From positions 1 to 64,000 of the forward strand of contig VGXU01000004.1 of NCBI GenBank assembly GCA_016873215.1: a stretch of 64,000 bases of DNA. The letters run 5' to 3'. The stretch comes from Planctomycetota bacterium. Its GTDB lineage: Bacteria; Planctomycetota; Phycisphaerae; Sedimentisphaerales; Anaerohalosphaeraceae. Below, piece by piece: positions 2,831 to 6,587 of the stretch (positions within the stretch are counted from its first letter, which is position 1; each line of letters starts with the position of its first letter). The position numbers and the translations under genes were made by a program. The notes below the pieces were generated by a model. That model was not told the origin of the DNA. It worked only from the letters and a program-made list of their open reading frames with translations, and ran no database searches.

Positions 2831-4057
2831 ATGACGGATTTTGTGATTGAACCGGCACAGCGAGTAAAACGATTGCCGCCGTATTTGTTCGGCAGGATCA
2901 ATGCGCTGAAGCATCAGAAACGCCAGCAGGATATCGATATTATCGACCTGGGGATGGGCAACCCGATGGATGGCGCCCCGCAGCAAGTGGTTGATAAGCT
3001 TTGTGAGGCTGCCAAAGATCCCCGCAACCATCGCTACAGTGCTTCCAAGGGCGTTTTTAATCTCCGGCGGGAAATGGCCTTAAAATACGCCCGCAAATGG
3101 AATGTCCAGTTGGACCCGGAAACCGAGGTACTGGCCACCATCGGTTCCAAAGAGGGCATCAGCCACATGTGTCTGGCAATGCTCGGGCCGGGAGATACGG
3201 CCATTGTGGCCGACCCGGCGTTTCCCATTCATATTTATGGTGTTGTCTTGGCCGGGGGAAATGTCATTTCCGTGCCGCTGGGCAACGACCAGAAGTTTCT
3301 GGATACCATAGCGATGGTTTGTGAAAGCCTGTTTCCAAAGCCGAAATTGCTGATTTTGAACTATCCGCATAATCCGACGTCAATGACGGTGGAAGAGGGA
3401 TTTTTTGAGACAGTGGTGGATTTGGCGAAACGGTTCGGTTTTGCGGTTATTCAGGACTTTGCGTATGGGGAAACCTGTTTTGATGGCTATAAAGCACCAA
3501 GTTTCTTGTCAGCCAAAGGAGCCAAGGACATTGGCGTAGAATTTACGACGTTGAGCAAACCCTACAGTATGGCCGGATTTCGAATCGGCTTTTGTGCCGG
3601 CAATAAAACGATGCTGGATGCCTTGGCGACCATCAAAGGCTATTACGACTACGGCATTTTCCAGGCCATCCAGATTGCCGGCATTATCGCGATGCGGGAA
3701 TGTGAAGATTTTATCGCCCAGCAGAATGCCAAGTATCAGTTCCGCCGGGATGTGGTGTGTGACGGCCTGCGCAGGCTTGGCTGGGAAGTGAATGTTCCCA
3801 AGGCGTCGATGTTTGTGTGGACGAAGTTTTCAAAGGAGCATTCCAAAGGCAAAGGCAGCATAGATTTCGCGATGGATTTGCTGGAGTATGCGAATGTGGC
3901 CATTGCGCCGGGCAGGGCATTTGGCGAGAACGGCGAGTATTGTATGCGCATCGCGCTGGTCGAAAATGAACATCGAATCCGTCAGGCAATTCGTAATATC
4001 GGACGTTTTATGCAGGGCAAATCAGTCGCCGGTGCCAAGTCGACAGATATGCAGTAA
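2831..4057 (+). CDS. PLP-dependent class I/II aminotransferase, AlaC-like
   Basis: A 408-aa fold-type I aminotransferase, cytoplasmic. Visible blocks are the substrate-binding GMGNPMDG (about 41-48), LNYPHNPT (about 176-183), DFAYGE (about 211-216) and the PLP-lysine block SKPYSMAGFRIGF (about 239-251), where Lys forms the Schiff base. The SK-x5-GFRIGF form matches the AlaC/YfdZ alanine-synthesising aminotransferases and the related LL-diaminopimelate aminotransferases, so alanine or glutamate-family amino transfer is the best guess. The ATG is preceded by AGAGG at 5 bases. The 3' end of this gene, together with what follows, has been tandemly duplicated (see 3956-5222). Confidence 0.9.
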   Translation: MTDFVIEPAQRVKRLPPYLFGRINALKHQKRQQDIDIIDLGMGNPMDGAPQQVVDKLCEAAKDPRNHRYSASKGVFNLRREMALKYARKWNVQLDPETEVLATIGSKEGISHMCLAMLGPGDTAIVADPAFPIHIYGVVLAGGNVISVPLGNDQKFLDTIAMVCESLFPKPKLLILNYPHNPTSMTVEEGFFETVVDLAKRFGFAVIQDFAYGETCFDGYKAPSFLSAKGAKDIGVEFTTLSKPYSMAGFRIGFCAGNKTMLDALATIKGYYDYGIFQAIQIAGIIAMRECEDFIAQQNAKYQFRRDVVCDGLRRLGWEVNVPKASMFVWTKFSKEHSKGKGSIDFAMDLLEYANVAIAPGRAFGENGEYCMRIALVENEHRIRQAIRNIGRFMQGKSVAGAKSTDMQ

Positions 4058-4563
4058 GCCCATTATTTGTAACGCGTTATGAAAATATATGATGTTCAAT
4101 TTTTGGGTTTTCGATAGCGTTCTGACGGTTTGGGTCCAATAAAATTACAGTTTTTTAAAAAATCTGCTTGACATTCCGCAGTCGGTTTGTTAAAAGCTAT
4201 AATACTGGAGTAGGCGGAAAGTACTTTTTGAAGTAATATTTGAAAGAGTGCTTTTCGCTGTTTTTTTGCGCCAAGCAATTCAAATCAGGGGAAGAAGGAA
4301 AGTTTTTTCTGGATGACGAGGAACACAAACTGTACCAGTGCGATAGCAGTCTATGTGGGACTGTAGCGTGTGCGGCGTGTGTAATGCGCGTGAGGTATTG
4401 TGTTTCTGCGTGTACGGGAGTTTTTCCGTAAAAGTCATGACTGTTTTGTCTGTGCGGACAAAGCGGCGTCAAAAGAAAGGACTTGATGATGAGAAGAATT
4501 ATCTGCTTATTCGCTATAGTGCTTTATTGGTTGAGCATGCAGGCAATAGCTTATTTTCACTAA
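3956..4563 (+). repeat. Diverged tandem duplication, unit A
   Basis: This unit runs from the last codons of the aminotransferase through a promoter and leader to the signal peptide of a PEP-CTERM-type gene. It aligns in order with 4582-5222. Anchors are GTCGAAAATGAA and ATATCGGACGTTTTATGC in the gene end, ggagtaggcgg (4207 against 4845), the segment ending acacaaactgt, gtgtttctgcgtgtacggg (4400 against 5059), and ATGATG followed by a hydrophobic leader. The offset drifts from 626 to 662 bases through small indels, so the duplication is old. Confidence 0.8.
4486..4563 (+). pseudogene. Truncated copy of PEP-CTERM protein: signal peptide only
   Basis: An ATG-started 25-codon frame encodes only a signal peptide (MMRRIICLFAIVLYWLSMQA, then five residues) and ends in TAA. 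It aligns with the first 25 residues of the intact gene at 5148, and its leader is also shared. It is best read as the 5' stump of a duplicated gene whose body was lost when the tandem duplication formed. AGAAAGG lies upstream, so it may still be translated into a short hydrophobic peptide. Confidence 0.65.
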
Positions 4564-4581
4564 CGGTGGTTACATGTTATT

Positions 4582-4680
4582 CTTGTCGAAAATGAATATT
4601 GAGTCTGCCGGACGATTCGTCATATCGGACGTTTTATGCGGGATAAACCGGCCGATAGAGCCAAGACCCAAGGCCTCAAT
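4582..4680 (+). pseudogene. Remnant of the aminotransferase 3' end
   Basis: Translated in frame this reads LVENEY, stop, VCRTIRHIGRFMRDK, matching LVENEHRIRQAIRNIGRFMQGK at the C-terminus of the aminotransferase at 2831. It has an in-frame stop, no start and no upstream body. It marks the left end of the second duplication unit. Confidence 0.75.
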
Positions 4681-4793
4681 AATTCTTTGTTTTGTAATGT
4701 TTTATGTGTTTTCGGGGTAAGCGTTTTTTGTCGCAGAAACAAGATGGATAAATCAGGGAAAATATAAAAGTTAAGATTTTTTTGAAAATCCAC

Positions 4794-4822
4794 TTGACTT
4801 TTTAATTGGTATATGGTTTAAT
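4794..4822 (+). promoter_or_regulatory. Promoter of the PEP-CTERM gene at 5148
   Basis: TTGACT (4794-4799), a 17-base spacer and TTTAAT (4817-4822). The homologous position in unit A reads TTGACA (4168-4173), 17 bases, TAAAAG. Both are preceded by a run of T and A. Transcription from here would give a leader of about 320 nt. Confidence 0.5.
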
Positions 4823-4829
4823 GAACTTA

Positions 4830-5147
4830 TCAAATGGATTTGGGGGAGTAGGCGGAAGAGCAAGTATCTTTGAGATAATGTGTCGAGGATAGAGTGTTTT
4901 TTTGCCGAATTTTTTCTGCGCTAAAGCAAATCAAACTGGGGAAGCTGGACAGAGTTCTTTTTCTGGAGACGAGGACACAAACTGTGTGAATACGTCTGTA
5001 ATCCTTGTTGGATTACCACGTGTGTGATGTGTGTGTGAGTGTCAGTTTGTATCGTGTTGTGTTTCTGCGTGTACGGGAAAAGGCTTTTCCGTAATTCTGT
5101 CATCGCTCTGTCCATTTGGATAGAGCCAGTGCTAATGAGAGGGTTAT
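4830..5147 (+). promoter_or_regulatory. Long 5' leader with two hairpins conserved between duplicate copies
   Basis: Between promoter and start codon lie about 320 untranslated bases. Near the 3' end are two hairpins. The first is acgggaaaag/cttttccgt (5072-5091). The second is GCTCTGTCC-attt-GGATAGAGC (5105-5126), just ahead of the GAGAGGG ribosome binding site. Unit A has a hairpin at each equivalent place (acggga-gttt-ttccgt near 4413-4428, and tttgtc-tgtgcg-gacaaa at 4445-4462) despite sequence divergence. This suggests a structured regulatory leader. No known riboswitch class is recognised. Confidence 0.45.
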
Positions 5148-5768
5148 ATGATGAAAAAGATGGTGTATCTATACATGGGATTGCTCTGCTTACTGAGCAT
5201 CCCGGCAATGGCCTCGCTCAATCTTGCGCCTGTGCCAAATCATCTTATGAACCCGGCGCCTTTCGTTCCGCCGTTAGTCAATGAAGACTTTATTGTGGTG
5301 TACGGCAGCGGGCTTGGTACTGCGAAAGCCAAAGTCACCAGTACAGTCTATAAAGCTGACGCCGGCGGGTATATCTACACGTATCAGATTTCGAATGCGG
5401 CGGTAAAATTTACGTGGTTTTCCGCAGCCCTCAACTCGGTAGCTATTACCGATTTGGGCGTTGATGTTTCCGGGACCGAGATGCAACCGGTGGCTTGGGT
5501 TCCGGTAGATGATTCTTCCGCCGCAACAAGCGTCGAGGCAATTTTCTCACCCGGCCTGACGGCCGCCAACAATTCCGCAATTCTTTGGTTCACCTGTGCT
5601 AAGGCTCCCGATCCGACTTATGGCGAAGGCGCATTAGCCAAGCTGTCTATTGTCGGCGGGGTGTACGCGGTAGGCAATATCTTGGTTCCGATACCGGAGC
5701 CAATAACAATGATTTTGCTGGGTAGCGGGTGGTTACTATTGCGAATCTGCAAGCACAAAAAAGCATAA
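5148..5768 (+). CDS. PEP-CTERM sorting-domain exported protein
   Basis: A 206-aa exported protein with an N-terminal signal peptide (about residues 1-22, ending AMA) and a C-terminal PEP-CTERM tag: PIPEP near residue 181, a hydrophobic helix, then the basic end RICKHKKA. Such tags are cleaved and sorted by an exosortase and usually occur in extracellular or surface proteins. The middle looks beta-rich and matches no family I can name. Two start codons are adjacent (ATGATG at 5148); GAGAGGG lies upstream. The leader and signal peptide are duplicated at 4486. No exosortase gene lies in the window. Confidence 0.85.
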   Translation: MMKKMVYLYMGLLCLLSIPAMASLNLAPVPNHLMNPAPFVPPLVNEDFIVVYGSGLGTAKAKVTSTVYKADAGGYIYTYQISNAAVKFTWFSAALNSVAITDLGVDVSGTEMQPVAWVPVDDSSAATSVEAIFSPGLTAANNSAILWFTCAKAPDPTYGEGALAKLSIVGGVYAVGNILVPIPEPITMILLGSGWLLLRICKHKKA

Positions 5769-6026
5769 TTTTCACGACGTTACAGTAAGAAAACAGAACT
5801 TTTCTCTCACGCTGCGGATTGAGTGGGATGCAGTCGCAAGGAGTGCATCCATCTTAAGCTGACGGGGCGTTTTCTGTCCTGCCGCGGCGAGATGAAAAGT
5901 GCGTTTGACACGCAAAATGGGGAAGGTCGAAGATTGGGGAAGGTCGAGGGTTGTTTTTCAACCGTGTTCCTACAGGAGTGAACAGGTATAGCTGTCTGAT
6001 ACTATCTCCAAAAAGGGGATGAAAAG

Positions 6027-6587
6027 ATGAAGCGCTGTAGAAATAAGAATCACCCGAGAAAAGTTTCCTCTATCCTCATATTGCTTCTTGGCATTGCTGC
6101 GATGCTGGCTGGAATGACATTGCCGGCTATCGCGGCAGAGGCGAAGGCAGCGGATTCCGGATTTGCCCTGCTGCTTCAGTCCAGTCCCGTTGACGGCGGA
6201 AACGTTATGCCGGGCGATGGCGTGCACATAATACAAATCGGTGGCTCTGTTCCGTTGGTTGCCGTGCCGAAGCGAGGATATCGTTTTCTTTACTGGCTTG
6301 GCGACGTAGGGCAAACCGACAGAACACGCACATCTGTAAGAATGGACAGCCCCAAGCTGGTTATCGCAGTTTTTGAACGCGAACAATTCGAAGACCTTCT
6401 CCCTGCCGGAATTCCGCAGGGCGCTTCCTATGGCGGAGTTTATGCATCTTCCGAACCGGGCAGCGGCGGAAGTGTTAACCCTCCTCCTCCTCCTCCTCCT
6501 CCTCCCCCGCCTCCTCCGGTTCCTGAACCTGTCTCTTTTCTATTGCTGGGACTCGGCCTGTTTGCGGTGAGTCGCATGCGAAAGTAA
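6027..6587 (+). CDS. PEP-CTERM protein with InlB-like repeat and polyproline stalk
   Basis: A 186-aa exported protein. It starts with a basic n-region and a signal peptide (about 12-37, ending AIAA). One repeat resembling the Listeria InlB B-repeat/bacterial-repeat fold follows (VPKRGYRFLYWLGD to LVIAVFE, about 85-117). A Gly/Ser-rich linker leads to a run of 13 prolines and then VPEP with the C-terminal hydrophobic anchor and basic end SRMRK. The proline run is encoded by tandem CCT codons (6480-6507), so its length may change by slippage. It probably works as a rigid stalk holding the domain off the surface. AAAAGGGG precedes the ATG. It lies 258 bases after another PEP-CTERM gene. Confidence 0.82.
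   Translation: MKRCRNKNHPRKVSSILILLLGIAAMLAGMTLPAIAAEAKAADSGFALLLQSSPVDGGNVMPGDGVHIIQIGGSVPLVAVPKRGYRFLYWLGDVGQTDRTRTSVRMDSPKLVIAVFEREQFEDLLPAGIPQGASYGGVYASSEPGSGGSVNPPPPPPPPPPPPPVPEPVSFLLLGLGLFAVSRMRK
6480..6507 (+). repeat. Trinucleotide CCT repeat inside the polyproline stretch
   Basis: About nine tandem CCT/CTC units encode most of the Pro run of the PEP-CTERM protein at 6027. Codons switch to CCC, CCG and CCT afterwards. In-frame slippage would lengthen or shorten the stalk without a frameshift. Confidence 0.7.

Follow-up and report, generated by a model that had tools for sequence, protein, structure and literature searches.

Tandem duplication upstream of a PEP-CTERM gene in a Planctomycetota bacterium and the predicted folding of its two leaders

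How a single PEP-CTERM gene came to be preceded by two related leaders, a short signal-peptide reading frame and a second aminotransferase tail is the question raised by one locus of a Planctomycetota genome (GenBank assembly GCA_016873215.1). In the window (the whole stretch of 64,000 nucleotides that was analysed, from contig VGXU01000004.1), the gene order on the forward strand is an intact class I/II aminotransferase gene (2831-4057; Pfam PF00155, E 2.9e-51), leader 1, a signal-peptide stump, a copy of the aminotransferase tail, leader 2 and an intact PEP-CTERM protein gene (5148-5768, 206 aa). Further 3' come a second PEP-CTERM gene (6027-6587; InlB-type repeat), a Cpn10 gene and a gene that we take, from its sequence, to encode a topoisomerase (topA). 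The initial annotation had read this arrangement as an old tandem duplication by which an exported-protein gene was amplified and partly lost. Frequent duplication and loss have been inferred for PEP-CTERM genes (Haft et al., 2006, PMC1569441); compared with the pattern described there, a single event can be followed here at the level of bases, and the retained piece is a leader and not a protein. The locus may serve as a dated example of the gain and loss of an exported-protein gene, a small, informative case of the birth and loss of such genes in an uncultured bacterium.

The C-terminal PEP motif, hydrophobic stretch and basic tail of the 5148-5768 product are visible and aligned in 9 sequences (its own and those of 8 relatives), and its scores are 14.9 bits against Pfam PF07589 (18.9 in the genome scan, cut-off 20.7) and 13.8 against TIGR02595 (cut-off 16). 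The genome encodes the exosortase EpsH (PF09721, E 4.7e-56, contig C12) and has 25 matches to PF07589, 24 of them over the cut-off.

A tandem duplication absent from both congeners

Bases 3956-4550 are collinear with 4582-5212 in the same orientation, with a local alignment score of 331.5 when 3956-4590 was compared against 4582-5230, while 300 first-order shuffles gave a mean of 57.9 and a maximum of 93, and other adjacent 620/640-base pairs within the window scored at most 90. A DNA search of the whole genome with 4582-5222 returned strong non-self matches only at 4207-4431 (E 6e-15) and 3956-4039 (E 2.5e-10), the next-best match being weak (E 0.066). The offset between the units is 626 at the aminotransferase tail, 601-626 in a gap-rich spacer and 659-666 towards the signal peptide, in agreement with the drift from 626 to 662 described before. 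It is very improbable that the similarity arose by chance or by assembly error. The assembly is a draft in 123 contigs whose contamination is estimated at 2.76%, but the alignment score lies far above the shuffle maximum, and, with a quarter to a third of the bases differing between the copies, an assembler could not have doubled the units. The reported duplication is confirmed.

The functional 3' end of the aminotransferase gene (3956-4039, forward strand) is 76% identical to 4582-4665, within the orphan tail at 4582-4681. As had been claimed, this second tail carries a stop in the homologous frame, a TGA at 4600-4602, which is its seventh codon. In two congeners (G001 and G002) the order is a single aminotransferase-leader-PEP-CTERM-PEP-CTERM-Cpn10-topA, with one leader and without the tail copy. 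Comparison with related genomes had been proposed for dating the event. Over the 84-base tail, 11 states are common to the gene and the tail copy and differ from both congeners (3 at first and 8 at third codon positions), and therefore the duplication is younger than the split from G001 and G002. Of the later changes that could be polarised, the tail copy took 11 (5, 5 and 1 by codon position) and the gene 2, with 7 others left unpolarised; the tail copy is decaying like a pseudogene, in a neutral-like manner. Leaders 1 and 2 are each other's closest relatives, with a z of 25.9 between them versus 5.0-10.5 to the congeners.

The named relatives in the wider comparison are metagenome-assembled Phycisphaerae or Planctomycetota. 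The aminotransferase was matched in 42 of 59 genomes at E<=1e-60 and the PEP-CTERM protein in 21 of 59 (own genome counted in both cases), and in 14 of these 21 the PEP-CTERM match lies at most 1.4 kb 3' of the aminotransferase on the same contig and strand. Among 50 loci with a match to the tail, a second aminotransferase tail was found in one, the window's own; this survey used flanks of mostly 1.5 kb, some cut by contig ends, included several loci from the same genome and would miss older, more decayed copies. Elsewhere, on contig C111 of genome G032 (L053/L066), two complete homologues of the PEP-CTERM gene stand in tandem, the second without its own leader.

The stump and the junction

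The first unit ends in a signal-peptide stump (4486-4563), as the initial annotation had noted: from the first ATG at 4486 there are 25 codons, MMRRIICLFAIVLYWLSMQAIAYFH, and then a TAA at 4561-4563, and its translation had no Pfam or NCBIfam match. The layout could have arisen in more than one way, and the junction between the units (4551-4581, 31 bases) bears on the choice. It scores 9.5 against the 3' flank of the window's own PEP-CTERM gene and 12.5 against that of G001, versus chance-level scores of 6 against the continuing PEP-CTERM coding sequence and 5 against the left flank of the aminotransferase segment. The summed score for the own and G001 flanks was reached by 0.05-0.15% of random 31-mers from the window and by 0.05-0.38% of segment shuffles, depending on scoring (joint p 0.0005-0.004), for a match that is only 31 bases long and was spotted post hoc. 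The corresponding flank of G002 was not significant (p 0.23-0.66).

The likeness of the junction to the PEP-CTERM 3' flank favours a whole-unit duplication with later deletion of the body in copy 1, and we regard it as fairly probable that a leader and gene unit of about 1.2 kb was duplicated after the congener split and then lost its first PEP-CTERM body. The earlier notion of a gene amplified and partly lost is supported to this extent, and it falls short of proof because one partial duplication ending inside the PEP-CTERM gene gives the same layout without any loss. Such a single partial tandem duplication, of about 0.63 kb with ends at about aminotransferase codon 376 and PEP-CTERM codon 25, would mean that neither gene was ever fully doubled and that nothing was lost. 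One event suffices for it, the frame of the stump continues into that of the aminotransferase tail like an in-frame fusion, and almost all of 3956-4563 is accounted for; however, 4551-4581 matches the PEP-CTERM 3' flank and neither the coding continuation nor the left flank of the aminotransferase segment, and we consider this origin rather unlikely.

Still less probable, in our judgement, is that the stump and part of unit 1 came by recombination from another PEP-CTERM locus and not from the neighbour. The first ~50 bases of the stump are nearer to a PEP-CTERM gene on contig C91 (54/66 identical, score 53 versus a codon-shuffle maximum of 30) than to the gene at 5148 (43/69), which is itself 53/67 identical to the congener. 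Signal peptides, however, have few degrees of freedom, leader 1 is closest to leader 2 (the z of 25.9 above) and only marginally like its C91 counterpart (z 3.3), and no match to the junction is seen in the 3' flanks of the C91 PEP-CTERM genes (p 0.57 and 0.29). The likeness to C91 leaves room for a mosaic origin of the stump or for fast drift.

With whole-unit duplication as the preferred reading, the tandem copy would have comprised the last ~30 aminotransferase codons, the promoter, the leader, the PEP-CTERM gene and its 3' flank, and would have arisen in this lineage after the split from the two sampled congeners. We infer that an internal deletion of about 0.55 kb then removed the PEP-CTERM body from copy 1 and left leader 1 with the 25-codon stump, while copy 2 would have kept its leader and gene, its useless aminotransferase tail decaying as a pseudogene.

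Two leaders with strong predicted folding

The initial annotation had not remarked that, by folding prediction, most of the duplicated interval consists of a structured 5' leader whose folding appears to survive in both copies. Leader 1 (4207-4485) follows a promoter-like site at 4168-4195 (TTGACA, 16 bases, TTAAAA), and leader 2 (4830-5147) follows one at 4794-4822 (TTGACT, 17 bases, TTTAAT), the two sites being read from the sequence and aligned with each other and with the congener promoters. Leader 1, folded as 4207-4487 (281 bases, including two start-codon bases), has a predicted energy of -98.4 kcal/mol (z -5.28, 0 of 200 shuffles as stable) and leader 2 one of -101.9 kcal/mol (z -3.19, 0 of 100 shuffles as stable). 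Eighty other 281-base stretches of the window, taken from both strands, have a mean z of -0.63 and a minimum of -3.63, and the tail-copy region 5' of leader 2 has a z of +1.75. Predicted hairpins lie at 4213-4259 (H1, from the minimum-energy fold), 4346-4364 (H2), 4413-4430 (H3) and 4443-4464 (H4, 5' of the ribosome-binding site) in leader 1, and at 4851-4906 (H1), 4998-5016 (H2), 5072-5093 (H3) and 5105-5126 (H4) in leader 2. The leader probably regulates the PEP-CTERM gene as a 5' RNA element.

The substitutions between the copies were then placed at random. With all 104 aligned substitutions, 0/300 versions of either leader reached -97.6; with half of them, 4/300 versions of leader 2 and 1/300 of leader 1 did so, and with a quarter of them 18/300 and 3/300, respectively. 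Random mixing of both leaders gave a mean of -87.5 and single crossovers -97.0. Randomised and mixed leaders fold worse, so the differences between leader 1 and leader 2 look coordinated under the folding model. When hairpins H2 and H4 were compared in the two leaders and the two congeners, 89.1% of cells were paired, with 6 pairs changed on both sides, versus 31-48% for slid partners; the comparison covers only four sequences and takes its structure from leader 1, which favours it. The minimum-energy folds of the two leaders have only 19 of ~100 pairs in common at identical columns, or 50 if a shift of up to three columns is allowed.

Among relatives the picture is mixed. The congener leaders fold weakly (z -1.53 and -0.94), and single-sequence folds of the leaders of 14 relatives range from z -5.70 to +0.92, the most structured (G023) being a fixed 620-base stretch not taken from a promoter. 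For six leaders from genus g2, the consensus fold had a covariation term of +0.73, which does not support a single shared fold in that genus. In the g2 leaders (L048-L058) a 34-base core, GTCTGCGGANGTAAGGACACATNTNACCGTTCGA, is nearly invariant, with five matches, each on a separate contig, in the species-wide collection. Rfam covariance models gave no match in 4060-5160 up to E 5 and none at gathering score in the 14 loci. The leader was also considered as a multi-copy element, and this was rejected: its covariance model R1 finds just two copies here and one each in G001 and G002; elsewhere three matches at E 0.02-0.03 were taken as noise, and any match at E<=0.1 occurred in 6 of 59 genomes.

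Orphan leader 1 folds more strongly by z than the working leader 2, despite its further sequence drift, and it might have been kept as a working RNA without a protein, either as a doubled structured leader or as a decoy competing for whatever binds leader 2. We hold this only tentatively and think it rather doubtful: the predicted fold argues for retention, but the -10 box of leader 1 is weakened (TTAAAA, the last base changed versus TTAAAT in G002), its GU tract is reduced (GTGTG 2 versus 6) and its similarity to the congeners (z 5.0 and 6.6) is lower than that of leader 2 (10.3 and 10.5). An ancestor more stable than either leader could also have led to the present folds by drift alone. Whatever the fate of leader 1, one long non-coding stretch upstream of a PEP-CTERM gene has the look of a structured leader, relatives of which occur in two congeners, and two diverged leader copies in one genome offer a natural test in which folding would be constrained and sequence free.

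Upstream control and copying of 5' ends elsewhere in the genome

More than 65% of PEP-CTERM genes are described as forming single-gene operons preceded by over 200 bases of non-coding DNA, and a PrsK/PrsR/sigma-54 cis-element as lying upstream of proteobacterial ones, while many PEP-CTERM genes, proteobacterial or not, have other upstream classes that were left unassigned in 2006 (PMC1569441). The present locus resembles that element, as described there, in having a conserved control region within a long upstream stretch, but has a sigma-70-type TTGAC-17-TNNAAT site, in a search for sigma-70-like sites only, and a leader with strong predicted folding. The site is not general, being present in 3 of 24 upstream regions of the genome's PEP-CTERM genes. 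A simple scan of the forward strand between the units found no intrinsic terminator or consensus promoter, and it also misses both promoters named above.

The locus likewise resembles tandem riboswitches, with two structured leader copies in series 5' of one gene, but differs from them in that the copies are separated by the stump, the pseudogene tail and a second promoter, and in that the leaders have no Rfam match or known ligand-binding core. In 5' leaders controlled by CsrA/RsmA, ANGGA is the fuller form of the GGA motif. A CsrA gene is present in 50 of the 59 genomes searched, this one included, and 10 of 16 leaders are enriched in GGA triplets at p<=0.026, but ANGGA is enriched (p<0.05) in just one of the 16; because GGA is enriched and ANGGA is not, the CsrA hairpin hypothesis is reduced to a lead. 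The GTGTG count was above all 500 shuffles in 9 of 16 leaders. A regulator of the leaders is only suggested by these motif counts, with CsrA as a candidate. In a narrow literature search, confined to PEP-CTERM in connection with CsrA or with untranslated leaders, such leaders were not described; a protein search of genome contigs gave no match, and no match was found to phages.

Copying of a leader and signal peptide recurs at two other loci of the same genome, on contigs C91 and C6. On C91 (2000-3517), two adjacent PEP-CTERM genes agree at 113/128 bases across the leader's end and the first codons and at 41/49 near the PEP-CTERM tail, and their proteins are at most 33% identical overall (one comparison covers the whole length at 33%, another 22 residues only). 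On C6 (1-5000, L101), the 5' end of the gene at 1451 is 90-91% identical, along 131-139 bases, to the genes at 2308 and 3175; the protein of this gene matches the 2308 protein over a 24-residue tail only and the 3175 protein not at the threshold used. Neighbouring PEP-CTERM genes thus share almost identical leader and signal-peptide starts and similar tails and have dissimilar bodies, so, judging from these alignments, the 5' end may be a cassette that gives rise to new exported-protein genes.

Several short repeats were also seen upstream of PEP-CTERM genes. In the window, TGGGGAAGGTCGA occurs twice (5915-5944) in the leader of the second PEP-CTERM gene. The pattern GGGG[AT][AG]G, chosen post hoc, occurs 6 times in the sense and 0 times in the antisense orientation across 27 PEP-CTERM upstream regions, a density of 0.66 per kb upstream of PEP-CTERM genes versus 0.09 in the window. 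A PEP-CTERM leader on C91 (L109, 1989-2131) has three copies of TGGGG[TC][GT]GAAAGAGTA, spaced 61 and 65 bases, and a fourth copy (C91 2843-2858) stands 5' of the PEP-CTERM gene that follows; at <=2 mismatches the genome contains 8 such sites, and all four at <=1 mismatch are on C91. On contig C1, a 92-base direct repeat, 88% identical, lies upstream of the PEP-CTERM gene at 109041 (L103).
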